A stretch of 64,000 nucleotides of DNA from the NCBI RefSeq assembly GCF_000328765.2, contig NC_019954.2, positions 2,363,769-2,427,768 on the forward strand, in the 5' to 3' direction. A program made the position numbers and the translations under genes. The notes beneath the pieces were generated by a model. The model ran no database searches, was not told the origin of the DNA, and saw only the letters and a program-made list of their open reading frames with translations. Shown here piece after piece: positions 47,401 to 64,000 of the stretch (position 1 is the first letter of the stretch; every line of letters begins with the position of its first letter). This stretch comes from Tepidanaerobacter acetatoxydans Re1 (GTDB lineage: Bacteria > Bacillota > Thermosediminibacteria > Thermosediminibacterales > Tepidanaerobacteraceae).

Positions 47401-47865
47401 ACATGACTCTTTAATATCAACTTCCAAATTAATACGTTTATCATTTTCAATTATAGACTTTAATCTTCTCCCTATGACCGCTGCACTTGCTTCTTTATCT
47501 GATAAACTGTATGAAACTGATGAATAAAATAAATACTGATACTTTTTTTCAGGGTCTTCAAATTCTATATCAGCAAGCAATTCAAATATAAGTCCAGCAA
47601 TATTTAGTCCTTCAACATAAAAGTCTTGAATATATTTTTTCATTTCTTCACTTGTTACATTAGTTAACAATGAAAGTAAATACATTGAAATGCTTTCCAT
47701 AGAAAATCGGTCAATATTATCTACTTCTTTTCTATTGAGTAAGATTTTTTGTATGTAAAAGTGGAGGTCAAGAATAATTTCCCTAACCTTTTCCACATCT
47801 TCCCTATTATCTATAATATCCTTTAAGCAAAGGTATAACTTATTAATATCTATAAGTTTTTCCAT
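44401..47865 (-). CDS. hamB: Hachiman HamB-type superfamily 2 helicase
   Basis: The 1154-residue protein has a Ski2-like helicase core: motif I MPTSAGKSFIAELA (near residue 310), DEFH (Asp409), SAIV, and motif VI NIVGRAGRAY. The C-terminal 80 residues (NLYDEFAIEVKTLKG, IGYVPAEYSEEIF) resemble a HIRAN domain, a fold linked with recognising DNA ends or forks. It overlaps the upstream nuclease gene by 16 bases. HamA nuclease plus HamB helicase is the Hachiman anti-phage system, in which the helicase senses DNA and licenses the nuclease. The HIRAN-like tail is my reading and may be a variation. Confidence 0.82.
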   Translation of the reverse strand: MEKLIDINKLYLCLKDIIDNREDVEKVREIILDLHFYIQKILLNRKEVDNIDRFSMESISMYLLSLLTNVTSEEMKKYIQDFYVEGLNIAGLIFELLADIEFEDPEKKYQYLFYSSVSYSLSDKEASAAVIGRRLKSIIENDKRINLEVDIKESCRYISFTLTRELKTIYKDRNKLGLPIKLSNNTIWEFLNRILIQNACCFVDGGDNKRVFRNIEELKNFLVIQDDIETLFYISLFSEVLQKMHSKSVWTILSQEGFLNEYINVLTKYDSKNVYELWRSQLDALRHNDNGFNYLSDSIKRVLISMPTSAGKSFIAELAIVKSLQLEEDKVCIYVTPTRALMSEIESNLFYRLRKVGYNVTSVLDTDENEYENDLLNHANVLVVTPEKLDLLMRRHKEFIERINLIIFDEFHKVSDNNRGWLLETLITWFMIKQQQYNYKIILMSAIVSNNEEVNVWLGNDEFKPVLSEWTPSRRVYGVLNPDYQQTKIVRINKKKRQEFTPYHLIFKYQENGKVIEDVFTNIVEKGNTNGRWIKNYSKCDTKYDRCFKFITTLNNGKVLVYFFTKIDLERFIKYSDKYLPLKNDERIKHLKTFLESRLGSEHPLVNSILYGVAYHHGDLPIEVRKEIEKAYKADLIDILACTTTLSDGVNLPIKNFVLGSFTSYEGKYKLSIADFKNIVGRAGRAYIDTEGKIFLIFHPEYYEESKKSYFRQLLFCESQETNVSSSIIGELDSIYSILDQLEEVIELSIQDVEKSLLDFIDRLQVFIFSLYEEYINYIDSYDDLYELLMNSLFAQQVDDKVLDKFNKICIKYYNFLDELNKNTLEKFNKTGLSFRSNRILLEIINEISKNENEFDFRLQAIITPEIFQKILDLKEISPKPYYYKVGNKNVDYDIDHYNAFMSWVSGDGFLKIRDSIFYEDNNISNRTQTCANYINDMFLYKLPWAFSSLYALAEDDLMFADIILKDLPAKIKYGVQNSEAVKLCTLGIESRELANILALLYEKDSSKDPEWAIDKWILETSFFYFEKNIKGIDDISIRQIARVRTKLRNRTSFLRDIGKIICEVKGLQFYNYFALYSNKTINKDTQMLLNHEPQNLYDEFAIEVKTLKGEKIGYVPAEYSEEIFEYIQGDDDLKVEITRLTPRKVEVKITIGN

Positions 47866-48761
47866 ATCACTTCCAGCACTCTTTCTTTGATATTTTTGAT
47901 TCCTTTGATACCTATTAATTTTACTCTCCTACACTCACTACTATCATACAAATGATTTGTACATTTAGTATTAAAGTTTTGAAATACAGTCTGTTGTGGA
48001 GAAGAGTTCCTTCCGTAATTAATTACTCCTGCAAATCTTTTCTGTGCTGTAGGATTCTTACCCATAAAGTATATTGGCATCCTGCTAATAAAATTCTTTA
48101 AATCTTCAGGTCCACTATGCTTGGTTCTTTCTTTAAAGGCATTTATTTCTTGATGTATTAGGTGTACAGGTCTTTTTATCAAAGAATCAATAATTTTGTC
48201 AGGATAACTCCCAATTGTATTATCGGTTGTTTTAACTTCTCCAATAATAAAATAATAATCATCTTCATTTTTCCTTATTTCTACATAGTCCAAACCTGAT
48301 TGTTTCGAATTTGTTTTTGGGCAACTTGGCTCAATCATTATCTTTTCATCTTCAAGACATTGTTCTCTTACAATATAGAATAATACTTCACCAAAATACC
48401 CATTAAATAAATCTCTATCTAAGGATTCAGCACAATTCTTTGTTTCATCATACCTAGACTGACTTACCATTCCATCGAAAAAAATATATTCAGCAAGATA
48501 CTTCTTTTCTTTTTCCTCCAATTCAACCTCATTATCAATTGCTTGCTGAAACTTATAACATAAATCTTCGCCATTATCCTCCAATATCAATTCACCATTA
48601 CACCGTAATCTGCAAATCAACTTTGCAAATTCAATCGCAAAACACTGTATATCGTCATCTTCTAGGTTATCCTTCCATAACAGTGTAATTGTCTTACATT
48701 TATTATGTTCATAGTATTCACTTATATTAAACCAATTACGTAAATCCAGAAATTGTTTCAT
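47850..48761 (-). CDS. hamA: Hachiman HamA-type (DUF1837) nuclease
   Basis: The 303-residue protein has the DUF1837 pattern: Glu125 in LFNGYFGEVLFYI, Asp158 in SGLDYVEIR, and Glu175-Val-Lys177 in IIGEVKTTD, forming a PD-(D/E)XK active site. It begins the two-gene unit with the overlapping helicase. In described Hachiman systems HamA degrades DNA when released by HamB. All catalytic residues appear intact. Confidence 0.8.
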   Translation of the reverse strand: MKQFLDLRNWFNISEYYEHNKCKTITLLWKDNLEDDDIQCFAIEFAKLICRLRCNGELILEDNGEDLCYKFQQAIDNEVELEEKEKKYLAEYIFFDGMVSQSRYDETKNCAESLDRDLFNGYFGEVLFYIVREQCLEDEKIMIEPSCPKTNSKQSGLDYVEIRKNEDDYYFIIGEVKTTDNTIGSYPDKIIDSLIKRPVHLIHQEINAFKERTKHSGPEDLKNFISRMPIYFMGKNPTAQKRFAGVINYGRNSSPQQTVFQNFNTKCTNHLYDSSECRRVKLIGIKGIKNIKERVLEVIWKNL

Positions 48762-49283: not shown

Positions 49284-50258
49284 TTAGTAGCCTAGATATT
49301 GAACAATATTTTCCCATATTTTAACAGCAATGCCATACGCATCACCTGCATTATTTTCAGCCATAAAATTCATTGTCATTTTTAATTTTAAATCTTTATT
49401 TTTAGTTACTTCACATTCAATCACATTATTAAATGAGTTATCACTATCAATGCTAAGCCACCCATATGACAGATATATATTTTGACTTATACCACCGAGC
49501 AAATTCCCCAGCCATATTTTAATCGCATACTTTTCCATACCGTTTATATAGAATCTTATAATAGCCTTTTGATTGTGTATAATATCTTTTTCATAATCAA
49601 AATTATTATTTTTTCGTTTAGTCTGCTCCGCAAAGTCAGATAAATGGGATAATATTTCAGCATAACTTTGTTTCATAAATTTATTTTTATCCAAATCCGT
49701 TATTTCTTTAAAGTTGGGAATTATACCAATATCTCCATTTTCCACCCCATCATAAATAATTTTCTTTGAATCTAATTTAGGTTTGGCTCCTACTTTTGGT
49801 ACATCAATTACATCTACCTGATAAATCCTATGCAGTAATTCATCAAACTTAATATCAAATTGCTCATCATGTGAAAAGTCAATAAAATGAAACCCTTCCA
49901 GATAAAATGGGACGGCTTTTCTATAGTCTCCCTTATGCCTCATTATTAAGATTATTTTATCTAGATTATCTTTTATATATTGTATTAACAAGTTCGTTTC
50001 ATAGCCAACTCCACCCTGGAAAGTATCTGCTTTATTAGCATAGTTCTCAGTAAGAATGAGTAAGATATTATCACTATTTTTTATCTTTTCTACCATCATT
50101 CTGTTCAAGTTAACAGTCCTACTTTGTGTTTCAAATTTATCAATTGTTGCAGCAACACCATTTTCTCTTAATTTAGCCGCTAAAACTGTTACCCAGTCTT
50201 CGTGTTTCTCATTATCCCAACTATAACTGATGAATACTGAAGGATGTTCTTTTGACAT
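49284..50258 (-). CDS. SEFIR (TIR-like) domain protein
   Basis: Residues about 5-155 form a SEFIR domain: VFISYSWDNEKHEDWV, LRENGVAATIDKFE, MMVEKIKNSDNILLILTENY. SEFIR domains are TIR relatives; bacterial SEFIR proteins have been linked to NAD+ depletion and abortive infection. The remaining 170 residues have no recognised motif and may sense the trigger. It lies 95 bases after the coiled-coil gene, so it may be the last gene of the large operon or an independent defence gene. Confidence 0.82.
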   Translation of the reverse strand: MSKEHPSVFISYSWDNEKHEDWVTVLAAKLRENGVAATIDKFETQSRTVNLNRMMVEKIKNSDNILLILTENYANKADTFQGGVGYETNLLIQYIKDNLDKIILIMRHKGDYRKAVPFYLEGFHFIDFSHDEQFDIKFDELLHRIYQVDVIDVPKVGAKPKLDSKKIIYDGVENGDIGIIPNFKEITDLDKNKFMKQSYAEILSHLSDFAEQTKRKNNNFDYEKDIIHNQKAIIRFYINGMEKYAIKIWLGNLLGGISQNIYLSYGWLSIDSDNSFNNVIECEVTKNKDLKLKMTMNFMAENNAGDAYGIAVKIWENIVQYLGY

Positions 50259-50353: not shown

Positions 50354-51022
50354 TTAAATGCTCTCTAACCATTTTAATATATACTCAGGGCTTTCCCTTA
50401 AAACATACATTCTCTTATAATTCTCTTTATTTTCTAGTATATTTTCTTTTATGAGAACTTTAATAACGCTGTATACAAGCGTCTTTGGAGACTTTTTATA
50501 ATTTGTTTCTTGAATAATTTTATCATTCAATAGTGAAGATATCGTAGATGTCTTTATATAATCCTTATTATATCTAACAAATTGATCTATGATAGTTCGA
50601 ACAATTTCTTCAAATATGTGTATTGGAATTATATTGGGATAACTACTGCTTCCATCAGGCCTTGCCGTTTCAATTCTTATGTTTTCATTTTCCTTCTTCC
50701 ACGTTGTTCTATCTGCTACATCTTTTATGTCTTTTTCATTCTCCTCTTCAATTTCTTCGTTATCTTCTTCCTGGTCATTATCAATTATGTAATCTCCAAA
50801 TATCTCTTTGTAAGAGCCCTTTAAATTTGCTAGTTCATTCATATGGTTTTTAACTTTTTCAAACATTTGTAATGCATTTTGTATTTCTTCAACTTGACCA
50901 TTTTTACTGCAATCAGGTATATGCTCTTGCAGGATTTTATTTTTTAGATTTTCTAAACTATCCTCCAATAAGTCGTATGAAGCGCTTATGTCCTCAATTT
51001 CCTTTTTAAAAACCGTATTCAT
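50354..51022 (-). CDS. Coiled-coil plus winged-helix protein
   Basis: The 222-residue protein has a predicted coiled coil (about 1-65), a highly acidic linker (EEDNEEIEEENEKD), and a C-terminal domain (about 130-222) that looks like a winged helix (TSTISSLLNDKIIQ, SVIKVLIKENILE). It follows the kinase gene by 102 bases. No family is recognised. A DNA-binding adaptor, or a substrate of the kinase, would fit. Confidence 0.6.
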   Translation of the reverse strand: MNTVFKKEIEDISASYDLLEDSLENLKNKILQEHIPDCSKNGQVEEIQNALQMFEKVKNHMNELANLKGSYKEIFGDYIIDNDQEEDNEEIEEENEKDIKDVADRTTWKKENENIRIETARPDGSSSYPNIIPIHIFEEIVRTIIDQFVRYNKDYIKTSTISSLLNDKIIQETNYKKSPKTLVYSVIKVLIKENILENKENYKRMYVLRESPEYILKWLESI

Positions 51023-51124
51023 GCTTATACCCCCGATATTTTTTTGTAAATATAACTGACCTGCTCACATCTTTAAAGTTCTTTAATATTAAAATGTAAT
51101 TTTACCTACTATTACTAACTCACC

Positions 51125-52588
51125 CTAATACCTCAGATAACCTAAATACTTGCCATATTCCTCTAGCCTGTCCCTAATCAACTCATCATTTGGGTCAAGC
51201 CTCATTGCATAATTAAAATAAGCCCTTGCCTTTTTAAAATCTTTCTTCTGGTCATATGCATGCCCCAGTTTTTTTACTATATAAAGCATTCCAGGAGTCT
51301 TTTTGTTAATTTCCTCTAATATATCTATGGCATTTTCCTGTTCGCTATTTAAACCATAAGCACACGCTAGCCTATATCTGTAATTTAAGTCATCGGGATT
51401 TCTTGATACAAGTTTTTCGTAAACTTTGACTGCTTCCTCGTATCTTTTTAGTTCAAAGAATAATTTCCCTTTTAAATATAGAAGATTATCTTCCAATGCC
51501 TCTCTTCTTATTTCTTCTACTTTTTCAATATCTATGCTTTTTAACATATCAATGCTATCAAAATATCTTCGCTGCTGAAAATACGTGTAGGCAGTGTGAT
51601 ATAATACATCAGCAGATTTATTTCCATTCTCATATTCCGTTTTTAGCAGTAATTCTGCTTTATCAAATTTTTTATTCTTGTAGCACTGGATTACCTTTTC
51701 TATCCAATCAGTGCCCTTATTCCTTACTTCAAAGTTTTCATCGTAAGAAATAATATCGTAGTTCCCATTTTTAAACACTTCTTCAAAATCCCTTTTGATA
51801 TCTTTTACATTTTGATACCTTTCTTCTGGATTTCTTTTGAGTAACTTCATAATAATTTTTTCAACAGATTCAGGTATATTGTCATTTATTTCTCTTGGTC
51901 TAGGATAAGGCATATTATTTATTAATTGATTAGCAGTTTCATGTGGCGTCCTGCCAGTTAAAAACTTATATAAAAGCACTCCCAATCCATAAATATCAGA
52001 ATTCAGATATCTGCGGTTTGAACCAGCAACTTCAGGAGCCATATATGCCCAAGTTCCCCCACCATCAATTGTTTTTATAAATAAGTCTTCTATCAGTTTA
52101 CTTGTGCCAAAATCAGTTATTTTAACTGTTGTCCCATTCGTTAAAATATTCTGAGGTTTAATATCTCCGTGGCAGATATTTTTTGAATGAATATATTCTA
52201 TTCCATCAAGTATCTGAAAAAACATACTATATATTTCTTCAAAAGTTCGAGGACTCATAAATCCCGTTTCACATAATTCATCTGATAGTTTATGCCCATT
52301 AAAATATTCCATTTCAATGAGAAAAACTCCATCTACCCGTCCCATCCAGTATATAGTAATTACATTTGGATGATGATTTCCAATGAATTCTTTTCCTTCG
52401 GATAAAGTATTATCTCCCCGTTCTTGGTCCTTAGGTATTTTAAGTGCCACAATTTCTTTGCTTTCAAGATTTACAGCCCTCCATACATAACCAAAAGAAC
52501 CTTCATCAATAAATTCCTTTAGTAAATACTTGTCTCCTATATTCATATCTACCTGTGGGCGAAAATTAACGGCTTTCTTTTTTCTCAT
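51125..52588 (-). CDS. Ser/Thr protein kinase with C-terminal TPR repeats
   Basis: The N-terminal 275 residues are a eukaryotic-like kinase: glycine loop EGSFGYVW, Lys50 in VALKIPK, HGDIKPQN with catalytic Asp142, DFG (Asp159) and MAPEVAG. Residues about 300-487 contain TPR-like helical pairs (YHTAYTYFQQRRYFDSIDML, ARAYFNYAMRLDPNDE). There is no membrane segment, unlike PASTA kinases. I start at ATG 52588, one base past the previous stop. A kinase in an operon with HerA, a NurA-like protein and HsdS points to signal control of a DNA-acting defence complex. Confidence 0.9.
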   Translation of the reverse strand: MRKKKAVNFRPQVDMNIGDKYLLKEFIDEGSFGYVWRAVNLESKEIVALKIPKDQERGDNTLSEGKEFIGNHHPNVITIYWMGRVDGVFLIEMEYFNGHKLSDELCETGFMSPRTFEEIYSMFFQILDGIEYIHSKNICHGDIKPQNILTNGTTVKITDFGTSKLIEDLFIKTIDGGGTWAYMAPEVAGSNRRYLNSDIYGLGVLLYKFLTGRTPHETANQLINNMPYPRPREINDNIPESVEKIIMKLLKRNPEERYQNVKDIKRDFEEVFKNGNYDIISYDENFEVRNKGTDWIEKVIQCYKNKKFDKAELLLKTEYENGNKSADVLYHTAYTYFQQRRYFDSIDMLKSIDIEKVEEIRREALEDNLLYLKGKLFFELKRYEEAVKVYEKLVSRNPDDLNYRYRLACAYGLNSEQENAIDILEEINKKTPGMLYIVKKLGHAYDQKKDFKKARAYFNYAMRLDPNDELIRDRLEEYGKYLGYLRY

Positions 52589-52589
52589 T

Positions 52590-53231
52590 TTATCCAACCT
52601 CTACCCATTGATTTAACATAAGATTATCAGCATTACCTGAAGCAACACACCGATATATTAAATACTTAGTTTTTAATGCATTAATTCCTCTTATATAGGA
52701 ACCATCACTTTTTTTAAATCCATTATCTAATATGGATATATATTCTTCAATCTCTCCCGGATTTTCCCCGGCATAACTCCAATATACAAATAATATGATA
52801 GGGATATTCCCGCCTAGTTGATGATAAGCAATAAGCAAGTTTTCTATTTTTTCTTTGACTTTTAAATCTTTTCTTCTATTCTTTTCATATCTTTCAAATT
52901 CGCAAATCAATATAGGGTTATTATCTTCTTTTGAATACCAAATAGAATCTGGCCTTACCTCATTAACTTTAACTTCGTAATTGGCTTGGTTTTCTGCAAC
53001 CATTTGTCCATAATAACCTGTTTGTGAATATGGATATACAGGACATTCTGAAAGGGATGTAATTCCTTCTACATGTCTCCCTATAGCAGTTATGTAATTA
53101 AGACCTACAGTATGAACAGTTTCTGAATAATCCCTTATCCCAAATTGTGTCATCATGGGGAACATTTCATTTCTAATATTTCCTTCTTTAAATTCTTTTT
53201 TTATAAAATCAATAATCTTTTGCCTATTCAT
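52590..53231 (-). CDS. Hypothetical defence-operon protein, possibly nuclease-like
   Basis: About 213 residues from ATG 53231 (MNRQKIIDF), which overlaps the HerA stop by eight bases and has a GGGG ribosome site. The stretch VRPDSIWYS followed by ILICEFERYEKNRR looks like an Asp...Glu-x-Glu core of a restriction-like fold but lacks the usual lysine. Its start and end overlap or abut its neighbours. Function is unknown. Confidence 0.6.
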   Translation of the reverse strand: MNRQKIIDFIKKEFKEGNIRNEMFPMMTQFGIRDYSETVHTVGLNYITAIGRHVEGITSLSECPVYPYSQTGYYGQMVAENQANYEVKVNEVRPDSIWYSKEDNNPILICEFERYEKNRRKDLKVKEKIENLLIAYHQLGGNIPIILFVYWSYAGENPGEIEEYISILDNGFKKSDGSYIRGINALKTKYLIYRCVASGNADNLMLNQWVEVG

Positions 53232-54909
53232 TGAATGAGCCCCATTCCTTAATAACTTCAGGAGATTCTCCACCATGTATAAGCGCTTTTGTTCCTATTT
53301 TTACAAGTAGTGGCGCGGGTATTGACCTACCATTTATCAATGCTTCTCCCGTTGATAAAGATGGCAATTCCTCAATATCAGATGTTGAAAACATATCTGA
53401 TGTTTTTGCAATAAACCTTTGGTCATCTGGATTTTTTAACCTCATTGTAATAATTGTATTACATTGTGATGTAACATCTGGGTCCAGTTTCGATGGCCTT
53501 TGGGATATAATTGCAAACCCTGTACCAAACTTTCTTCCTTCTGCAGCAATTTTCTTTATAATTTTTTTAGATATACTCGGTATACCTGCTGGTGCAAAAT
53601 TATGTCCCTCTTCGTAAACAAGGAAACATGGTCTTATCTGCCTTTTCTTATCTGATGCTGCTCTCATTATCTCACTGGATATCAATGCTGTAATAATTTG
53701 CTTTGCATCGTCAGATAAGCCTTGTAAATCTATAATTACAAGCCTTCCAACACTCTTTCCTCTTTCTCCAATCATTTCATAAATATCTGTAGGTTCGCCG
53801 ATAGCCCTTGTATAAAAACTCTTTGCTTCATTTATTACTCTAGTCAACTTCAGAGAAGCAACTGCTGCACTTCTATTGTTTAATGCTTTTGCTTCTCCTT
53901 CAGTCAAGTTATCCCAACTCTTTAATTCTTCTAATCCTCGCTCATCTGAGAGCAAATATGTTAAATCCTGAATATCTCTAGGAGGATTATTGTACTTTGC
54001 CTTCCAATATCTTATTGCAACATCTAATACTCTTTCTTGAGCCTCCGTTAACCCAGGAAGAATAGATGACAAATCATCCATATCAAATCTGTCAAATTGC
54101 AGAGCCAAATGATGATTCTTTGCACTATATTTATAATCAAAAGAATCAATCTGAGGAGTATATACTTTTATTCCGCCACCAGCATTGAGCATCTTTGATA
54201 AATTTTCCTGAATCTTTTGTATACTCTCCTTTTCTTTCTCATCCTCAATATAATCGAAATTGTTATTAAAGTGTATCTCTCCCTTTTCAAATGCTTTCCC
54301 GTACTCCCCATGAACATCAAATACTACTACTGTTCCATTCATTTCTGCAACAAGTCTTTCAATAATCCTGCCTACAGTGTATGATTTACCTGAACCAGTC
54401 ATAGCCAGCACTGCCATATGCTCTGTAACCAGTTTATTTACATCAAGATAAACTGGAACTATATTGCTCCCCTTATCGTATCCAATAAGATTTCCTATAT
54501 TAAGGCTAGTATTTTCATCAAATTTATAAAATTTTGATAAAAACTCATAATCAACACCATATACCTTTTCCCCTGGGTTAAGAGGTCTCCTTGGTATTTT
54601 TATCTGCCCATAATTATCTCTATACCCTACTAATTCTATGGTTCCAAATAGTGTCTCTCCTGTAATTTGCGCACCTGGTAATATTTCAAGGGATGATAAC
54701 CCCTCACCCATGTTGGAGTTATATAGAATATTGCTTCTGGATATGGAAACAATTCTTCCTAGAACATAGGTATCTCCATCTTCTTCAGTTTCTCTATGTT
54801 TAATTTTTACAAACTCACCCCTTTTAGCAGAAAAACTATTTTCAAGGGCAATCTTTAAATCATTAGGATTCCCAGTGTTACCGATAAGTTTGCCTATGTA
54901 TTTGTCCAT
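53224..54909 (-). CDS. HerA-like hexameric ATPase
   Basis: The 561-residue protein has a beta-barrel-type N-terminus (about 1-150), Walker A AMTGSGKSYTVG (residues 169-180), VFDVHGEYG, a Walker B-like FLVYEEGHNFAP and the ISQRPSKLDP sensor region. HerA/FtsK-type translocases pump DNA and pair with NurA nucleases. A NurA-like gene lies 22 bases upstream. In defence operons such pairs degrade or process foreign DNA. Confidence 0.92.
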   Translation of the reverse strand: MDKYIGKLIGNTGNPNDLKIALENSFSAKRGEFVKIKHRETEEDGDTYVLGRIVSISRSNILYNSNMGEGLSSLEILPGAQITGETLFGTIELVGYRDNYGQIKIPRRPLNPGEKVYGVDYEFLSKFYKFDENTSLNIGNLIGYDKGSNIVPVYLDVNKLVTEHMAVLAMTGSGKSYTVGRIIERLVAEMNGTVVVFDVHGEYGKAFEKGEIHFNNNFDYIEDEKEKESIQKIQENLSKMLNAGGGIKVYTPQIDSFDYKYSAKNHHLALQFDRFDMDDLSSILPGLTEAQERVLDVAIRYWKAKYNNPPRDIQDLTYLLSDERGLEELKSWDNLTEGEAKALNNRSAAVASLKLTRVINEAKSFYTRAIGEPTDIYEMIGERGKSVGRLVIIDLQGLSDDAKQIITALISSEIMRAASDKKRQIRPCFLVYEEGHNFAPAGIPSISKKIIKKIAAEGRKFGTGFAIISQRPSKLDPDVTSQCNTIITMRLKNPDDQRFIAKTSDMFSTSDIEELPSLSTGEALINGRSIPAPLLVKIGTKALIHGGESPEVIKEWGSFNE

Positions 54910-54931
54910 AAATAATACTCACCCCTTCCTT

Positions 54932-56098
54932 TTATTCTTCAAATACATCTAAGTCTTCTTTCCAAATACTTTCTAACTCCTCATTTTTAAGCATCTCTCT
55001 TGCTTGTGATTTATAGTATTGTAAGATAACATTTTTCCCGTTATTTGTTGCTTCAACTGGTTTTAAAGCATATTTTGCGTACCATAATGGTAATGGCATT
55101 GCTTTTTGCTGGTCAAATGTAATTAATGATATAATCTGTGAAGCCAATTCATCGAGCATTTCTGTTGTCCACACTTCTTTACTGCCTAAAATTTCTACAA
55201 GCATTGGAGGAGTAGTGTTTCCAGCCTTAATATGCATTCCTACCATCTCATATTTTCCAACAGATTGAGGTTCCAGCCTATTTCTCTCTTCCTCATTGAT
55301 TCTGCTAATCTCATATGCTGCTGTTCTCGTTCTCTTAACCAGAATTCCTGTTAAAAGCCTTTTTACACCAACATCCTGTAGTTTCGGTATTATGCCATTC
55401 ATATTCTTAATAATATTCCTGTCGATATCATCAACAACATATTTCACTTTGTCTTGTGTTAGAGCAAATATTACTGCACCAAATCGTTTGTTACCAACTG
55501 ACGCTATTTTAATGCCATTATCATCAAATGGATATATTTTTTCTTTATACTTAACCCAAAATTCTTCTATTGTATCAACACACTGTTTATAGACTTTTTC
55601 AAGGTCTTTTCTACCTGATATAGGTACGTCCTGTTGCTCTAACAATATTGGTACATCCACCAAAACAAGTTCGGGTTTTTCATCGTCCTCCATTAAATCT
55701 CCAAGCAATTTATATACATTAATGATATCTATAAACTTTAATTTTTTCTGGTTATCTAAATCATCTATTTCGTCTACATCTACTATACTTTCCTGCCTTG
55801 TTTTATAGATAGAACCATCATCGATGAGAACATCCTGTCGTACTGCCCCAGCAACATATAAAATTCCACCAAATGCATTAGAAGTCCTGTTAGTTGCCGA
55901 AATTCCTGAAGCATTAATGGTAAGAGGATTAATTAGTTCTATGTTTCTAATCACTCCACTTTCTTTTAACGTGGGGGCTATTTTATCTATAAACCGCATT
56001 TTTGATGACAACTTGGAAACTGTGGCCGGTAGTCCCAACTGAATATTAGCAACTATACTTTGGGATATAGGGGTACCGCTTTCTTTAAATCCATCCAT
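54932..56098 (-). CDS. NurA-like nuclease candidate
   Basis: About 388 residues from ATG 56098, with IDDGSIYKT and LVLVDVPILLEQ placed like the acidic strands of NurA nucleases, and GNKRFGAVIFAL and LVKRTRTAAYEI further on. The assignment rests on these weak motifs and on the adjacent herA. An internal overlap of 14 bases with the previous gene shows operon coupling. It may be a 5'-3' nuclease fed by HerA. Confidence 0.6.
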   Translation of the reverse strand: MDGFKESGTPISQSIVANIQLGLPATVSKLSSKMRFIDKIAPTLKESGVIRNIELINPLTINASGISATNRTSNAFGGILYVAGAVRQDVLIDDGSIYKTRQESIVDVDEIDDLDNQKKLKFIDIINVYKLLGDLMEDDEKPELVLVDVPILLEQQDVPISGRKDLEKVYKQCVDTIEEFWVKYKEKIYPFDDNGIKIASVGNKRFGAVIFALTQDKVKYVVDDIDRNIIKNMNGIIPKLQDVGVKRLLTGILVKRTRTAAYEISRINEEERNRLEPQSVGKYEMVGMHIKAGNTTPPMLVEILGSKEVWTTEMLDELASQIISLITFDQQKAMPLPLWYAKYALKPVEATNNGKNVILQYYKSQAREMLKNEELESIWKEDLDVFEE

Positions 56099-56885
56099 CT
56101 TCTTTTTCACCTCTCTTTTTTACAACCTGAATAAAAGGTTTTAACTTCTTTTCCTTCACTATGTCCATACCCTTATTCGTTAATCCATCGACATTTATAT
56201 ACTGATGAGCCACTAAATCTTTATACATTCCCATAGCAGTTTCCTCATCAACTGTGACTCCAAAGTATTTCTTAATTTTTTTAGACATTTGATTAACCAA
56301 ATCCACTTGGGCACCTAATAAAATAATTAAATAAATATGTATATCGTTTAAAGCAAAATTTTTTATCTCCACTGTAGATTCTTGTGCTGAAACGTCAACC
56401 TGAAACAAGGAATCAAATAAATTTTTTAATTTATACTCAAACTGGATTAGCCTATAGTCTAATAACGGTAGAGTAACTACCGTTATTAGACCTGTTCCTG
56501 TATTTCTTCTATAGTTAACACTAAAAATCTTTCCATCCTGCTGAAATATAATATCTTTTACTGTGGCTTCGATTTTATAATCTACTGGGATTTTATCAAA
56601 ACTGCTATCTGTTTTAGTAATTAATATATCTATTGATGAATCGAAAAAATTTTTTAAGTTCATTTCAATCCATGTAGGTATCAGTATTAACTGATTGCTG
56701 CTGTCTTTCAGCCAGATATTTAGTAAATTCAATTGTTCCTTATCTATCCTATTTAAAAGAATACCAGGTAAAACTAGAACTCCTTTTTGAAGTGCATCTA
56801 GGTTTGCTATTTGACAGTTATAGAAACCTTTAAGCATTCTATATTCTGTTCTGTTTTTATATTCATCTAATATTTGAACAAACAT
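56085..56885 (-). CDS. Hypothetical protein of the defence operon
   Basis: About 266 residues from ATG 56885, which overlaps the stop of the large ATPase gene as TGATG. A Rossmann-like N-terminal half (GVLVLPGILLNRIDKEQ, LILIPTWIEMNL) is followed by a C-terminal part resembling a winged helix (KKIKKYFGVTVDEET, HQYINVDGLTNKG). No family recognised. Tight coupling suggests it acts with the ATPase. Confidence 0.6.
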   Translation of the reverse strand: MFVQILDEYKNRTEYRMLKGFYNCQIANLDALQKGVLVLPGILLNRIDKEQLNLLNIWLKDSSNQLILIPTWIEMNLKNFFDSSIDILITKTDSSFDKIPVDYKIEATVKDIIFQQDGKIFSVNYRRNTGTGLITVVTLPLLDYRLIQFEYKLKNLFDSLFQVDVSAQESTVEIKNFALNDIHIYLIILLGAQVDLVNQMSKKIKKYFGVTVDEETAMGMYKDLVAHQYINVDGLTNKGMDIVKEKKLKPFIQVVKKRGEKEDGWI

Positions 56886-59800
56886 CACAGCACCTCAACC
56901 TTTGTCCGAATCAGTTTCACTAATTCCAGTTCCCTCTTTTCTTCAGGGTAATCATCCCATGTAATATCACCATCTTTTTCAACCACCTGTTTAAAGAAAC
57001 CAAAAGTAGTCTTTTTAATTGATGATGAATTTTTAAAGAAAGATTCTCCTTCATTGGTAAAGGCATTCATTTTATCCTGTATTGCTATCTTGGTAGCCTC
57101 ATATGTTGACTCTTCCGGATACTCCTCCATATTTATTTGGGCAGATATAGGATTCTTTCCTTGTACTTTTCGTACCTTGTCCAAAGTTTTTATAAGTAGT
57201 ATGTCATAAAATTCATTCTTTCTTGTCCTTGCCAAGTTCATAACGTTTGTTCTATAACCCTCAATGAGCCCCACATACTGCTGCATATCTTCAACACTCT
57301 TTTTAAGAAGTGCTAAAAAGTCATCAGGCTTACTCAGCATAACAGGTTCGTTATCTTCAATTTCCTGTTCAAGTCCGCCATTTACAAATAGTTCTATTTC
57401 CCTAATGCAGTTGCTTAAATTTCTTACTTCAGAGTGGTTTTTTAATTTTTCTGGGGCATCCGAGAAATAATCAACCCATCTTTTACTTTCAGGTAATTTC
57501 TTATAACAGTCTATAATTGAGGTAAAGTTCTTATAGATTGTCCTGTACTCACCTATTATCCCTTTATCATTTGCCCACTTTAACTCATTATTTTCGATGA
57601 CTTCCAAGCCACAGGCATCAAGAATATCTTCAATTCGTTTATATGCCCCACTAAAATCCCCATCCATTAACTTATATGCCAGAGTATTTATATAGGAAAC
57701 CATAGTACCTGTACCTGCTATGGTCATCTTTTGATAATCCGTAGAATTTTCCAACTCATTGCAATATTTTTGCAATATATTCGTTATTGGAGAAATAGGA
57801 AGCATGAATTCTTCATATATACAATTATTTTTAATTTCTTCTATCTTCTTCATAATGCTCTTTACGGCTGGGTCTTTCAAATTATTAATATAGTCTATAA
57901 ACAATCTTATATGCCTTACCCTAAACCATAAAGGCTTATCCTTATCATCAATTTTAATATCCTTTATGATATTTGGGTTATAGGTTTTGATGTTATTCCA
58001 TCCATCACTGTCATATACTTGATAGCAAACACCTAAAAATTCCTCAACCTTAGAAATGACCTCTCTGAAGTTTTCCATGTTCTTATCATCTTTTTCTGAT
58101 AACTTATCAGCATTAATGCTATCCTTAATTTTTTCAGCATCTTGAAGTTGCACTTTATAGTAGGGCACTTGATTCTTTTCAAGAACATCCAAATAAGGAC
58201 CGTTTATAACCTTCTTCATACTGCTAATTTCCTTTTTGCAGTCATCTTCAAGCCACTTTTTAACCACAGAATACTTTCCATTCAACTCATAGTTGGATAT
58301 TCTCTCTATAAAGCCTTCCCTAGTCTTTAACAGAAGGTTTAAACCCATCATGAACTCTATCCATTGTTCTACAATACGTTTTGGCTTTACCTCATGTATA
58401 AGGCTAAAGAAGAACTTATTACCATAGTCAGCCAAAGATTGGTTGTGGTTCCCATTAAACTTCAGTATCCTATTCATGCAAGAAGGTATATTTATACTAT
58501 ATTTGTTTTCATCCTCTTTGATGAACAATCCTGTCTCTTTATACCCTTGGCCTTCATTCATTCTTCCTATAGTAGTTGATTTTAAAACAATCTTTAACTC
58601 CGTATATTCTGCATCTGATAGTCTCACATCTTTCTTACTGCCAAGTTCCTCAAAATCAAGGTCATATATAAGCATTTTTTTAAAAGCATTAGAAAGAACT
58701 GCTAGTTGTTTTTCATCATGTTTCTTATAGATAATAGGCCTTAAAATCCAGCCTTCTTCATCTAATTTTTCAAACCATTCTCCCGCTTTTAGATTAAAAT
58801 GGTCTCTAATCTTTCGAATTCTATCCCTAAAGGTAGATGTGATAACATTTCTATTTTCCCTTATATCCAATATATCCTTATCTAAGGACATAACTTCTAA
58901 AATATCCTTTTGGAGTCTGGTTATATTAACAAATATCAAGCACTTTCCTATACCTTCATACTTTTCCTTAACAAATTTATCAGTATACTCTGTACTTATT
59001 ACCGAATCAGAAATCACAATTACAGGATGAACCCCGTCTTTTAAGAGCCTATTATCAAGCAATACTCCTTTTAGTTTTTCTTCATCCTTACCCCATATAA
59101 TATCTACTATTTTATCTCCGTGGACATCCAGATAAGGACCCCCTTCTACCTTAGTCCTGACGCATTCAACACCATTAATAGTATAAAAACTCTCTTCAGG
59201 ATAATTTATCTCTAAAGCCCTGCATGCCCCTGAAAGAACCCTTTTCACTTCTTCTTTTCTATTTTTACTTCTTTCTTTTATTAACTCTTCAATCTCTTTG
59301 TTCTTTTCCGTATCAGGAACAAATCCAAAGTCATCTTTTTCTACCCTATATCTTTTATCAAGTCGGCTTAAATAGGCAAAATTGGGACCAATATATTCTG
59401 CTTCTTTTACATCTTCTTTTTCTAATTTTTCAATTATATAACTATATATATATCTTGCTGCTTCTTCAATATCTTCTTTTGGATATAACATCCTTACCTG
59501 GTCTAAAAATGTTTCTTCTTCTTTACCTACAATGTACTCATTTTCTTTTACATTAAGAGAAAAAGTTTTCAGACTTCTAAAAAGTATACCTAGGTCAAAA
59601 CTGCTGCCAAAGTTATTGATAAAATTATCCCCCAATTCTCTTTTGTAGCCCTGTGAATTAAGGTAAACGGCCAAATCATCTTTTTCTAATTTTACACGGT
59701 AAAACTCTTTAAATAACTTCTCCCCATCTTCTGCCTTGGCATCCATCATGGCTATAATTTCTTCATCTGAATAATTGGATTTTTTCTGAGGAATTTGACC

Positions 59801-60946
59801 TAGAAGAGCATGTTTAACCGTCTGTCTAAACCTATCATCACACCTAATATAATCAAAGGCTGGTTTATCAATTAAACTTTCCTTAAAGCGATTGCTGGAG
59901 TTTAGTATATTTTCAAAGATGTGCCCTGTATCTTTCCTAATAGTATTATCCTCCATCTTTTGGTCTACGTTGTGCATGATAACATTAAACCAGCCAAAAT
60001 TACCTCCTGCTATAGTATAGGCTGCTTCCACCAACCCCTTTGGATATTCTGGTATCATACCTTTTTTGTTTAGAAAATATATAAAATCTGATATGTCTGC
60101 AAAGGAGTTCTGAAGCATTTCATACATTTCCGTCCTTCTATCTAGTGCACCTATTCCTTGGATACTTCCTCCAATGGCTGTAGAGCACAACAAAAGGAAA
60201 GAAACCTCTGGATATTTTTTTCTTGGGTCTTCATGTTTTATTGCACTGGTAATTACCTGAATTGCTTCCCCATCAACTTTGTTTACGAGTTCCTTATCTT
60301 TTTCAATTCCATACTTTGCGATTTCTCCTGCTGTTTCCATTTCATCGCAAATAATCATAAAATGCTCAATATCAAACTGTTTGACATACTCCATTCCTTT
60401 TCGGGTTAACTCATCCAGCCTTTCTTTACTTATTACCAATTCATCTGTATTTACGTTATTTAATTGCAGCAAATCTCCTAAGGTATTTCTATCAAAACCC
60501 ATAGGAATTAGGGCATCTTGGATAGATTCCATAATCTTTCCTTGGATACTTCCATCGGATTCTCTACTTAAATAAGATAAGGCTGTATAAATACCATAAG
60601 CCACCCAGTTATCCCCTAGCAAATCAGGGTGACACATTTGAGAATACCTTATGTATAACGGAAGAACCTTATCTTCGAAGTTAGGCTTAAAAATCCTTAC
60701 TTCCTTTTGTTCTCCATCTTCATTAATAATCCAGCCCTTATCCATCCCAAGAGGTTCTGAGATAAGTTCAAACCCAATTCGGGATTTACCTACACCCCAC
60801 TTTGAAATCAATGGGAATATGGTCGCCATCCCTGCATTTTTCATGGTTTTTGTAAAGCCTTTAAAAATATCATAAAACTCTTTTTGTCCAACCATTGGCT
60901 GGTTTAATGGAAAATCGCTAGTGCCAAAGGGTGCCCATATAGACAT
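56885..60946 (-). CDS. Giant P-loop ATPase of the defence operon
   Basis: About 1353 residues from ATG 60946 (MSIWAPFGTSDFPL), seven bases after AGGAGG. A Walker A-like SKWGVGKSRIG lies near residue 50, with Ser where Gly or Ala is usual, and a Walker B HFMIICDEMETAG near residue 200. The rest is mainly helical and charged, without domains I can name. Size and layout recall the large ATPases of BREX (BrxC/PglY) and MADS-type systems. It probably senses or marks invading DNA and drives the complex. Confidence 0.75.
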   Translation of the reverse strand: MSIWAPFGTSDFPLNQPMVGQKEFYDIFKGFTKTMKNAGMATIFPLISKWGVGKSRIGFELISEPLGMDKGWIINEDGEQKEVRIFKPNFEDKVLPLYIRYSQMCHPDLLGDNWVAYGIYTALSYLSRESDGSIQGKIMESIQDALIPMGFDRNTLGDLLQLNNVNTDELVISKERLDELTRKGMEYVKQFDIEHFMIICDEMETAGEIAKYGIEKDKELVNKVDGEAIQVITSAIKHEDPRKKYPEVSFLLLCSTAIGGSIQGIGALDRRTEMYEMLQNSFADISDFIYFLNKKGMIPEYPKGLVEAAYTIAGGNFGWFNVIMHNVDQKMEDNTIRKDTGHIFENILNSSNRFKESLIDKPAFDYIRCDDRFRQTVKHALLGQIPQKKSNYSDEEIIAMMDAKAEDGEKLFKEFYRVKLEKDDLAVYLNSQGYKRELGDNFINNFGSSFDLGILFRSLKTFSLNVKENEYIVGKEEETFLDQVRMLYPKEDIEEAARYIYSYIIEKLEKEDVKEAEYIGPNFAYLSRLDKRYRVEKDDFGFVPDTEKNKEIEELIKERSKNRKEEVKRVLSGACRALEINYPEESFYTINGVECVRTKVEGGPYLDVHGDKIVDIIWGKDEEKLKGVLLDNRLLKDGVHPVIVISDSVISTEYTDKFVKEKYEGIGKCLIFVNITRLQKDILEVMSLDKDILDIRENRNVITSTFRDRIRKIRDHFNLKAGEWFEKLDEEGWILRPIIYKKHDEKQLAVLSNAFKKMLIYDLDFEELGSKKDVRLSDAEYTELKIVLKSTTIGRMNEGQGYKETGLFIKEDENKYSINIPSCMNRILKFNGNHNQSLADYGNKFFFSLIHEVKPKRIVEQWIEFMMGLNLLLKTREGFIERISNYELNGKYSVVKKWLEDDCKKEISSMKKVINGPYLDVLEKNQVPYYKVQLQDAEKIKDSINADKLSEKDDKNMENFREVISKVEEFLGVCYQVYDSDGWNNIKTYNPNIIKDIKIDDKDKPLWFRVRHIRLFIDYINNLKDPAVKSIMKKIEEIKNNCIYEEFMLPISPITNILQKYCNELENSTDYQKMTIAGTGTMVSYINTLAYKLMDGDFSGAYKRIEDILDACGLEVIENNELKWANDKGIIGEYRTIYKNFTSIIDCYKKLPESKRWVDYFSDAPEKLKNHSEVRNLSNCIREIELFVNGGLEQEIEDNEPVMLSKPDDFLALLKKSVEDMQQYVGLIEGYRTNVMNLARTRKNEFYDILLIKTLDKVRKVQGKNPISAQINMEEYPEESTYEATKIAIQDKMNAFTNEGESFFKNSSSIKKTTFGFFKQVVEKDGDITWDDYPEEKRELELVKLIRTKVEVL

Positions 60947-60957
60947 ACCCATACCTC

Positions 60958-62014
60958 CTAACCTATAATTTCTAATTTTATTAATTGATAATCTCTTTTA
61001 CCTAAAAGTCCCCTGCCATGCCTTGGCTGTCCTTGCTCATGATTCTTAATCCTAAACCTTCCCTGGTTTATTCCCGTAATAAAATAATGGTCAATCCACT
61101 GTTCTTCTGTCATATTGCTTTGGCTATCGATACTAGTTTTAAGCATGGAGCCTACAATTCCTATTGGGAAAAATCCTCTTGCATCAGAATATTCTTTTAT
61201 TAATTGTTCTAATATTTCTAATTCATCTGCATTCGCCCCATTTACTAGACTTTCATATACACTTTGACCTGCGTCGTTTTTTTATTTTCTGCTTATCTAA
61301 TATGTACTTTCCATCTTCATATTCAATAATCCAGCCCAAATAATCAAATAACAGCATTGGTATTTTTAAATATGTACTCATGGAGCCTAATGAAGGATAA
61401 TCCTTGTTAATTCCTCTAAACATTATTTCTTCTGGTTCATCTATGTTAAGTTCCTTTCCCCAAAAATCCCCTAATATTTTTAAAGTGTTTTCACTCATTA
61501 AATCATTTATATTTATTTCTTCTGGTTTATTGCTAAATACATAATATTCCTTGTTGTTAAAGATTATATAAGCCTTAGCGAAGTTTTTCATATATCCTTT
61601 TTCAAAAAGAAGTTGTCCTCCATTTAACATTGCAAAAGCAATAGTTCTAACCCTTATAGAATACTTTAATAATTGACTTGCCAATACCTTTTCCCATCCC
61701 GCATTTTGTTTGTACCGCTCTACCAGTTCAATAGCACCCTCTGTAAGTTCGTATCCATATTCATTCTCTTTAATGAAATTACATCCAACGATAGTTACAG
61801 AGTCTTTTGTCTTTTCAACCCCAAATAGGCCATATACCTCATCAGCATTTACAATCCTTCCGCCCTCATCAACCTTGTAATCTAAATAGTCTCTGGCTAT
61901 ATCTTTTTTGCTGGTGCAAGGTATTTTTTCTGGTAAGGATTTTAAAATTTCCGCCCATCTTTCTATGTTAGATGGTTTTACCCAGAATCTATCAGTACCT
62001 ATTTTAATAATCAT
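60958..62014 (-). pseudogene. Defence-operon gene with a one-base homopolymer frameshift
   Basis: The first frame (ATG 62014, overlapping the upstream stop as ATGA) encodes about 245 residues (FWVKPSNIERWAEIL, YDYL-type repeats) up to ILDKQKIKK. After a T7 run (61277-61283), the coding sense moves to another frame: NDAGQSVYESLVNGANADEL, then GFFPIGIVGSML, WIDHYFITG and GRGLLGKRDYQLIKL, ending at 60958. Removing one base gives a single protein of about 350 residues that ends just before the giant ATPase gene. The family is unknown. Basic C-terminal residues suggest nucleic-acid contact. Confidence 0.65.
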
Positions 62015-63063
62015 AATGTATTCCTCAACTTTTCTATGTAATCTTTAAGGATGTTTTTAAACTTTCTGGAACGGTTTTTAATAATAATATCCTTGGAGTA
62101 TATCAGGTCTTTAAACTTTTCATTAAGGACATATTCTCCATCTTTAAAATCTATTTTTTGTTCGTCCATCATATCAAAAATCACCTTGTCTACTTCTGGA
62201 GCCTTGTCGGGAAATAAGTATATGTCATTCTCTAAACAAAACTCATATACAAAATCATTGAGCATTCCTACCCTAACCTCTCTCCCTTTTGTATTGAAAA
62301 TGTATAAGTCTAAGGCTTGTACTGCATAGTAATTGTTGTGGTCTGTAGGTCTTATGGCTAAACCTTCAAAGCCAGCCGTCTGGTATTCCAGGGCTACCAT
62401 AGTCAACAAGGTTAAAAAGGTTTTCCACGGGTAAGAAAGAACTTCTCTCACTGGTTCCTCCACTGAAAAATCCCTATATTCGTAAGGGGTAAATGTATAT
62501 TTATTTTTATCTAACTTTGCAAGAGTTATTGATGAAGTTACCTTTCTGCCTTTTGTCCATATTTCATTAGGATTCTTTCCCATGTAATCCGAATCTACAT
62601 CTTCTATATTCTCTACTAACTGCATGGTCTTAAGTTTGTTAAGTATTGAGGGATATTGTGGATAACCATTAAATATAGCCTGATAAAATCCCTTTACCTC
62701 TCCTGTTTCATCTATAGTCTCATCTTTTATCTTTAATATTGTTTCGACAAATTCAGGGATACTGTCTATAAACTCATATAGGGCTTTACTGTCCCCCCTC
62801 CGACCTATAATACATGCCTCTGCGTAAACCTTTTGCAACAGTTTATGTAATAATGGAGGATAGAAACAGAGAAGAGAGGATATAAAGTCTTCTCTGTTTA
62901 CCTTTCCACTAAATTTAATCCATTTTTTCGTAATAACCATCCTATCCTCTATAAGCCTAATAAAATTTTGGTCTATAAGGTATTGCAAATCTATATTGTT
63001 TTTTATTTCTCCATAATCGTATAGGAAGTTTAAACTTTTAACCAACTCGTTTATGTTTACCAA
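62011..63063 (-). CDS. Hypothetical protein of the defence operon
   Basis: A 350-residue protein starting at TTG 63063, eight bases after GAGGGTG. It reads as an alpha/beta protein (IEDRMVITKKWIKFSG, VEEPVREVLSYPWKTFL, LAIRPTDHNNYYAVQAL) with no motif I recognise. Its stop overlaps the next start (ATGA), and it follows the YjcQ-like gene by 32 bases. Confidence 0.65.
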   Translation of the reverse strand: MVNINELVKSLNFLYDYGEIKNNIDLQYLIDQNFIRLIEDRMVITKKWIKFSGKVNREDFISSLLCFYPPLLHKLLQKVYAEACIIGRRGDSKALYEFIDSIPEFVETILKIKDETIDETGEVKGFYQAIFNGYPQYPSILNKLKTMQLVENIEDVDSDYMGKNPNEIWTKGRKVTSSITLAKLDKNKYTFTPYEYRDFSVEEPVREVLSYPWKTFLTLLTMVALEYQTAGFEGLAIRPTDHNNYYAVQALDLYIFNTKGREVRVGMLNDFVYEFCLENDIYLFPDKAPEVDKVIFDMMDEQKIDFKDGEYVLNEKFKDLIYSKDIIIKNRSRKFKNILKDYIEKLRNTL

Positions 63064-63095
63064 TAAATATCACCCTCTTTCATCTCCATGATCAT

Positions 63096-63422
63096 TTATA
63101 TTCCTGGAATTAAGTCCTTAATTTCCTTTGCTGCTCTTAATATTTTTGCAGTGGATGAGTTTTCCGCTAAATACTCTATTCCTTTTAAGGTTATTTTCAT
63201 ATTATCTAAAAAAGCCATAATAGGTGCTCTATTATTTCCATCTCTAATAAAATTAACTCCCTTGATAAGGCCAGCATCTTGCATCATTTCTAGTATATAA
63301 TTTCTTCTTTCTTCACTTATTCCAAGTGATTCTGGACTTAAATCCGTAAAATCTGGATTGTTTTCATCGAGTGTCTCATCCAACTTTTGAAGTATTTTAT
63401 ATACTACATCTTGAGTTTTCAA
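63096..63422 (-). CDS. YjcQ-like winged-helix protein
   Basis: The 108-residue protein has the YjcQ-type pattern: VVYKILQKLDETLDENN, LGISEERRNYILEMMQDAGLI as the helix-turn-helix, and ITLKGIEYLAENSS. It starts at TTG 63422 after GGGGGA, 26 bases after the HsdS stop. YjcQ domains are found in phages and defence operons, with a likely DNA-binding role. Confidence 0.75.
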   Translation of the reverse strand: MKTQDVVYKILQKLDETLDENNPDFTDLSPESLGISEERRNYILEMMQDAGLIKGVNFIRDGNNRAPIMAFLDNMKITLKGIEYLAENSSTAKILRAAKEIKDLIPGI

Positions 63423-63448
63423 CTTATCTCCCCCTAATTTGCAACCTT

Positions 63449-64000
63449 TTATTTTTTCATGCTAAAGTTGCCTTCTATCAAATCTTCTACATCTTGCTTG
63501 GCTTCTTTTATCAATTGTTTCGATAAAAACATATTATCTATTGCTTTTATTACTATTATGTTTATTTCTCGCTTTAACTTATTATCTATAACAGGTATAA
63601 AAATGTCGCCTATGTGCTCTAACGATAAGTGCCTATTTGTTGCACCAGTTATCCCCTTTAAAATACTTATTTGTCCAATAATCGATTTTAAATATAGCAG
63701 TACATATGCTGCATCATTTTTATCTTTCAATCTTACAAAGGCTGTATCAGACGATAAAGTTGCTTTACTACACTTGTTATTATAAAACAATGATACTTTT
63801 CCTATTGTTGCTCCTGTAATTGCAAAAATTAAATCATATTGTTCTAACTGGCTTGATTTTTTTTCTGAATATGTTTTTTTATCTACCATTTCCACACTAT
63901 CAAAATTAATAAGCAAATCATCTAAATCTGAAATTCTAATATAAGGAATTGATTTTTTATCTAAACTTGTATAACTAAATCCCTTGCCGACACTTGCAAC
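63449..64000 (-). CDS. Type I-like specificity subunit HsdS, C-terminal part
   Basis: The gene is cut by the window edge; the same frame runs without a stop from 63449 to 64000. It shows the second target-recognition domain (SIPYIRISDLD, YDLIFAITGATIGKVSLFY, GATNRHLSLEHIGDIFIP) and the long helix (VIKAIDNMFLSKQLIKEAKQ) typical of HsdS. This subunit chooses the DNA sequence for a methyltransferase, so an HsdM-type gene should lie beyond the right edge. No HsdR motor is seen in the window. Confidence 0.88.
   Translation of the reverse strand, partial: VASVGKGFSYTSLDKKSIPYIRISDLDDLLINFDSVEMVDKKTYSEKKSSQLEQYDLIFAITGATIGKVSLFYNNKCSKATLSSDTAFVRLKDKNDAAYVLLYLKSIIGQISILKGITGATNRHLSLEHIGDIFIPVIDNKLKREINIIVIKAIDNMFLSKQLIKEAKQDVEDLIEGNFSMKK

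Follow-up and report, generated by a model that had tools for sequence, protein, structure and literature searches.

The DNA analysed here (the window) is a stretch of 64,000 nucleotides (C1:2363769-2427768) from Tepidanaerobacter acetatoxydans Re1, whose genome is a single contig of 2,761,252 bp. Its right end lies within a minus-strand operon that continues beyond the window edge and combines an N6-adenine methyltransferase (MTase) and two subunits of the specificity (S) type with a giant ATPase, a HerA translocase, a predicted nuclease and a Ser/Thr kinase. An earlier note, made from the sequence alone, had described the visible part, at 50354-64000, as a tightly packed gene tract resembling the methylation-associated defence system (MADS), and all the genes that it listed are present.

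Gene organization of the operon

The sequence beyond the right edge (L003, in which position p corresponds to window position 59931+p) completes the operon, which reads as follows in the order of transcription.

67268-68551 (window-equivalent, beyond the edge), minus strand: HsdS2, a MAD5-like S-type protein
66773-67144 (window-equivalent, beyond the edge), minus strand: p123, a protein without assigned family
64877-66760 (window-equivalent, beyond the edge), minus strand: HsdM, N6-adenine MTase (PF02384, 7.9e-23; motif I and NPPF)
63449-64864, minus strand: HsdS1, type I specificity subunit of 471 aa (PF01420, 3.1e-10); its 3' part, 63449-64000, lies inside the window
63096-63422, minus strand: YjcQ-family protein (PF09639, 6.6e-35), an accessory insert
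62011-63063, minus strand: p350, core protein without Pfam match, conserved in position
60958-62014, minus strand: p351, core protein, read as p253 (61253-62014) plus p62 (60958-61146)
56885-60952, minus strand: giant P-loop ATPase of 1355 aa, with a variant Walker A and a Walker B
56085-56888, minus strand: p267, core protein without known family, overlapping both neighbours
54932-56110, minus strand: NurA-like protein, divergent and weakly assigned from a NurA profile alignment and its place directly before HerA
53224-54909, minus strand: HerA hexameric DNA translocase with HAS-barrel (PF01935, 2.5e-47; PF09378, 1.2e-13)
52590-53276, minus strand: p228, predicted PD-(D/E)xK nuclease of 228 aa (structure model and Foldseek), overlapping HerA by 53 bp
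51125-52597, minus strand: Ser/Thr kinase with C-terminal TPRs (PF00069, 7.7e-44)
50354-51022, minus strand: acidic coiled-coil protein, found in close relatives only

Spacing inside the tract runs from -53 to +32 bp, so that the junctions proposed in the earlier note (overlapping or within 35 bases) hold for the most part, the exceptions being kinase/coiled-coil (102 bp) and the apparent p253/p62 gap (106 bp). Beyond the edge, HsdS1/HsdM and HsdM/p123 are each separated by 12 bp and p123/HsdS2 by 123 bp. HsdS2 is preceded, at a distance of about 60 bp, by a promoter-like site and, further upstream, by a terminator-like hairpin; promoter-like sites are not commoner here than in shuffled sequences, and Rfam gave zero matches. 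Several of the earlier calls were refined by the complete operon. What had been taken for a partial HsdS is indeed a specificity subunit, but a complete gene merely cut by the window end, and the methyltransferase expected beyond the right edge is there in the same operon as HsdM. The assignments of HerA and of the kinase with TPRs are firm, and the kinase retains intact HGDIKPQN, DFG and VALK motifs. One of the two supposed unknowns stands as p350, whereas the second (61253-62014) is part of a split p351, and what follows HerA as a small protein, ahead of the kinase, is p228.

Conservation and distribution

We compared the operon with ten related loci by tblastn and gene calls: L007-L011 (Tepidanaerobacter sp. 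GT38, Tepidanaerobacter sp. EBM-38, Herbinix, Clostridium sp. N3C and a Thermoanaerobacteraceae metagenome-assembled genome, respectively), L018, L019, L021, L022 and L038, two of which are cut by contig ends (L019 within the ATPase, L038 before HsdS1). Gene order is kept across all of them while ATPase identity falls from 89% to 52% (L019) and then to 37-39% (L018 and L038); the test of synteny that the earlier note had proposed thus came out in its favour down to 37% identity. Since the same order recurs in several Bacillota families, the operon must be more than a chance assembly. Its core consists of 11 genes (p123, HsdM, HsdS1, p350, p351, ATPase, p267, NurA-like, HerA, p228 and kinase), and the whole varies from 11 to 13. 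L018 has no HsdS2 upstream of p123, L018 and L038 have no coiled-coil gene after the kinase, and the YjcQ gene, correctly recognised before, occurs only in the Re1 copy and not in the relatives, for which reason we rejected it as a component of the system. HerA is the most conserved protein, with 74% identity in the most distant loci, and p350 keeps its position with identity down to 26% in L018.

In an evenly drawn sample of 398 Bacillota genomes, searched with an ATPase profile, 6 carry the ATPase, and searches of two further classes added 2 genomes (G438 and G463). That nearly identical operons lie between different flanks in separate families points to horizontal transfer. Searches of plasmids with the ATPase, NurA-like, p228 and HerA proteins (HerA at E 1e-30), and of phages and viral contigs with the ATPase only, returned zero relatives. 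The kinase proved an uninformative query, matching nearly every Bacillota genome. Among plasmids, HsdS2 had no relatives other than distant S subunits, carried by plasmids of Thermus and Hymenobacter. One of these, with 33% identity to HsdS2 over one third, belongs to a cluster in a Hymenobacter plasmid (NZ_CP110138.1; L041, 9782-24423) encoding an MTase, HsdS, a 1379-aa kinase, an unknown and a giant protein, possibly a further kinase-linked methylation system.

The split gene p351

In every relative, p253 and p62 form a single gene of 349-351 aa with an invariant GQPRHGRGL near the C-terminus, and we therefore rejected them as separate genes. The split in Re1 results from a +1 frameshift in a run of seven adenines (window 61277-61283) at a place where the relatives lack such a run. 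This break could be read as the sign of a decaying remnant, an explanation that we find hardly credible: the other genes are intact, and the ratio of nonsynonymous to synonymous substitutions (NG86, against L008) is about 0.115 before the shift and about 0.10 after it, a value low enough to indicate that the downstream half has not decayed. Ion Torrent sequencing is known for errors in homopolymer length. Ion Torrent PGM reads were used according to the strain's genome announcement (PMC3587937), and the data suggest either a homopolymer sequencing error or a very recent mutation.

The two S subunits evolve in opposite ways

Across eight close loci, median identity is about 96% for HsdM, the ATPase, HerA and the NurA-like protein and 82-95% for the rest, but only 34% for HsdS1. 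The divergence of HsdS1 is concentrated in its two recognition domains (15-30% identity), whereas identity reaches 85-90% in the central and C-terminal spacers, and between L007 and L021 the first half is 80% identical and the second 36%. Fixed spacers with variable domains mark a modification system whose sequence specificity changes, and by its sequence HsdS1 is a classical type I S subunit with exchangeable recognition domains. HsdS2 shows the opposite pattern, with 88-92% identity in the recognition-domain regions and about 75% in the middle spacer.

The HsdM and HsdS of a type I restriction-modification (R-M) system are thus present, as seen in Pfam matches and in the spacer/recognition-domain pattern of HsdS1. 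HsdM scores 1361 bits with the generic type I MTase model and 61 bits with that of mad2. Neither the operon nor the 10 kb read on its upstream side contains an HsdR, so that another effector would be needed.

Candidate effectors and unclassified proteins

HerA has an intact Walker A (MTGSGKS, residue 170) and Walker B (VYEE, residue 431). For p228, an AlphaFold2 model (predicted local distance difference test, pLDDT, 78; predicted TM-score 0.77) gave PD-(D/E)xK restriction enzymes as the top Foldseek matches, led by BstEII (2.7e-3) and followed by EcoO109I, PaqCI, BsoBI and EcoT38I. The protein carries the motif RPD(110) x15 E(126)xE(128), in which D110 and E126-x-E128 are invariant; a D...ExE active site is also that of BamHI. 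These results indicate that p228 is probably a PD-(D/E)xK nuclease, a model-based call at the level of the superfamily.

The identity of the NurA-like protein is more delicate. Pfam yielded zero NurA matches, and the AlphaFold2 model was unusable (pLDDT 33). Compared with NurA, BREX (bacteriophage exclusion) and reversed-decoy profiles, the protein has NurA as its top match, collinear over residues 41-344, but weakly so (E 0.002, probability 12.8%, score 30.8, where 40 shuffles reached no more than 22.4). The label given in the earlier note therefore keeps some profile-profile support, and a NurA relative, possibly catalytically altered, is plausible from the alignment, although not established. 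The ATPase bears a variant Walker A, SKWGVGKS(R), at residue 50 and a Walker B, IICDE, at residue 200, and none of Pfam, NCBIfam, PADLOC and the Protein Data Bank (PDB) returned a significant match to it; PDB sequence searches with the NurA-like protein and p228 likewise gave nothing significant.

A proposed model of methylation-gated restriction

We lean towards the view that the operon encodes a mobile, methylation-gated restriction system, whose antiviral function would follow from its composition. Because HsdM is accompanied by an HsdS1 with exchanged recognition domains, methylation is the likely self mark, host DNA being marked by N6-adenine methylation through HsdM and the exchangeable HsdS1. 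Recognition of unmarked incoming DNA would fall jointly to the methylase/specificity arm, the giant ATPase, p350 and p351, with the constant HsdS2 perhaps supplying a fixed contact; p267 may also contribute. The HerA hexamer would then be loaded and pump the DNA, presenting it to p228 and the NurA-like subunit for cutting, and the TPR-kinase might license or limit this step by phosphorylation. With HsdR absent, cutting would naturally fall to the set of HerA, p228 and the NurA-like protein, an assignment made by analogy to HerA-nuclease systems and to the HerA/FtsK capture concept (PMC10853773). Any particular order of these events is doubtful. In favour of the model stand the fixed order of the eleven core genes, the motifs of HsdM, the exchanged recognition domains of HsdS1, the intact HerA, the fold and D..ExE motif of p228, the lack of an HsdR nearby and the surrounding defence genes.

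Several observations weigh against this model. In Foldseek, p228 reaches low TM-scores of about 0.3, and a standalone homologue with 38% identity in G077 (L110, 14865-15485), outside any visible defence locus, has its presumed catalytic aspartate, equivalent to D110, replaced. The NurA identity is weak, the motif I aspartate of NurA not being conserved at the aligned position; p351 is frameshifted in the Re1 copy; and the ATPase, p350, p351 and p267 have no known family.

The two arms might also be adjoining systems, a type I-like HsdM-HsdS and an independent HerA-nuclease-kinase module, that travel together without cooperating. HerA-nuclease pairs such as DUF4297-HerA and Sir2-HerA defend without methylation (listed in PMC12948488), and HsdM and HsdS1 strongly match generic type I families. 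Against this, order and strand of both parts are kept in all complete loci, including L018 with 38% ATPase identity, and the gaps at the junctions measure only 12-32 bp, which makes us regard two uncoupled systems as improbable.

The operon may represent an undescribed class, in which a methylation-gated, kinase-regulated HerA restriction machinery is built around an unclassified giant ATPase, HsdS1 swapping re-targets the self mark and the MAD5-like HsdS2 stays constant for fixed sensing or loading; we propose this tentatively, at slightly less than even confidence. No paper describing this gene set was found in the literature searched, which left most subscription journals outside, and its novelty is accordingly provisional. 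In modification-based defence beyond classical R-M, such as BREX, DISARM (defence island system associated with restriction-modification) and MADS, the destruction of unmodified DNA lacks a clear account. Here one syntenic unit combines type I-like marking with HerA as a motor and with a nuclease plausibly of the restriction type, making the link directly testable, and its two S-type subunits, which behave in opposite ways, allow target-setting and fixed roles to be compared. PADLOC-DB 2023, the defence-gene library used here, lacks several of the core proteins, and annotation with it would consequently show only scattered R-M, kinase and HerA matches.

Genomic neighbourhood

The operon lies in a defence island. 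Just downstream, a Hachiman-type pair (window 44401-48761) consists of the helicase HamB (PADLOC HamB, 5e-84), whose C-terminus carries a HIRAN domain, and HamA (PF08878, 2.2e-8). A bSEFIR/TIR-domain protein (window 49284-50258; PADLOC bSEFIR, 2.4e-53) lies 95 bp past the coiled-coil gene, and in L007 and L009 the operon is likewise followed by a shortened version. In Clostridium sp. N3C (L010, 16025-18100) an inserted gene pair, for DarT and a macro-domain, DarG-like protein, separates the NurA-like gene from HerA. Upstream of the Re1 operon (L003, 10756-13687) a gene pair encodes an unknown protein of 412 aa and one of 557 aa that matches a PADLOC endonuclease effector (6.9e-42). In G341, the operon is immediately preceded by a same-strand helicase gene (L019, 18-2411) with an MrfA zinc-binding domain (PF09369).

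Comparison with known systems

Like type I R-M, the operon has an HsdM and a two-domain HsdS of the classical kind, in which the spacers are conserved and the recognition domains can be exchanged; it differs in having a multi-gene HerA/ATPase/kinase arm instead of HsdR. A NurA-like gene immediately upstream of HerA recalls the cellular HerA-NurA end-resection pair, but the protein is very divergent here and a separate canonical NurA/HerA pair is encoded elsewhere in the Re1 genome, at C1:34271 and 36286.

A relationship to BREX, in which the methylase and ATPase would block phage replication and the nucleases serve as backup, could be argued from the combination of a large P-loop ATPase with an N6-adenine MTase, from the distant relatedness of HsdM to PglX (hhalign 96.5%) and from a composite BREX system with HerA (PMC12839542). 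However, comparison by hhalign with profiles built from 12 Bacillota BREX loci revealed no relative of BrxA, BrxB, BrxC, PglZ or BrxL (PglZ/BrxZ, BrxC/PglY, BrxA and BrxB all below 5%), so that by this comparison the giant ATPase is not BrxC, and a genuine BREX locus with clustered partner genes and a BrxC of 1359 bits sits elsewhere in the same genome (L092, G000:C1:562000-581900). We rejected BREX membership, the placement named in the earlier note as one that would overturn it, and consider a BREX-related system very unlikely.

MADS reportedly comprises mad1-8 (Maestri et al. 2024), and its gene functions are taken here from model names only. With it the operon shares an N6-adenine MTase, an S subunit, a Ser/Thr kinase and a HerA-type ATPase in one operon. 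HsdS2 has MAD5 as its top NCBIfam match (1.5e-29), at 103 bits a quarter of the 400-bit cut-off; the kinase reaches 136.5 bits with MAD6 (cut-off 460) and has mad6 as its top PADLOC model (186 bits over part of the profile); and HerA matches PADLOC mad8 at 93 bits, below the generic HerA models at 200. In a divergent MADS, the ATPase, p350, p351 and either p267 or the nuclease would be diverged mad1/3/4/7. Apart from mad6 on the kinase in PADLOC, however, all these matches fall far under the NCBIfam cut-offs or under generic families, and at E up to 10, within the filters of HMMER, none of the operon proteins matches mad1, mad3, mad4 or mad7. The NCBIfam MAD8 model (NF047742) is silent in the Re1 genome (E up to 10), as it is in control genomes, and mad7 was found in 0 of the 398 Bacillota genomes, operon carriers included, with controls also lacking a match. 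MADS membership is therefore rejected and a divergent MADS seems unlikely, if the least so of the alternatives; the resemblance noted earlier survives at the level of domains, and the suspicion of a distinct subtype was the better half of that reading. Also different here are the two S-like subunits of opposite evolution, the NurA-like and PD-(D/E)xK proteins, the unclassified 1355-aa ATPase and the size of 11-13 genes.

HerA/FtsK capture systems (DndFGH, PMC10853773; BREX-Related Capture, PMC12839542) likewise bring together, at a single locus, a HerA/FtsK translocase, another large NTPase and a nuclease resembling restriction enzymes. HerA and a restriction nuclease, the latter predicted from its fold, do share this operon, while N6-adenine methylation with HsdS and a kinase among the core genes set it apart; phosphorothioation genes, PglZ and DUF6079 gave no match with PADLOC and Pfam models. 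Each known system shares parts with the operon, and all except the broad HerA capture fail at least one tested defining feature. The best reading is that of a distinct variant within the MADS/BREX/Dnd theme.

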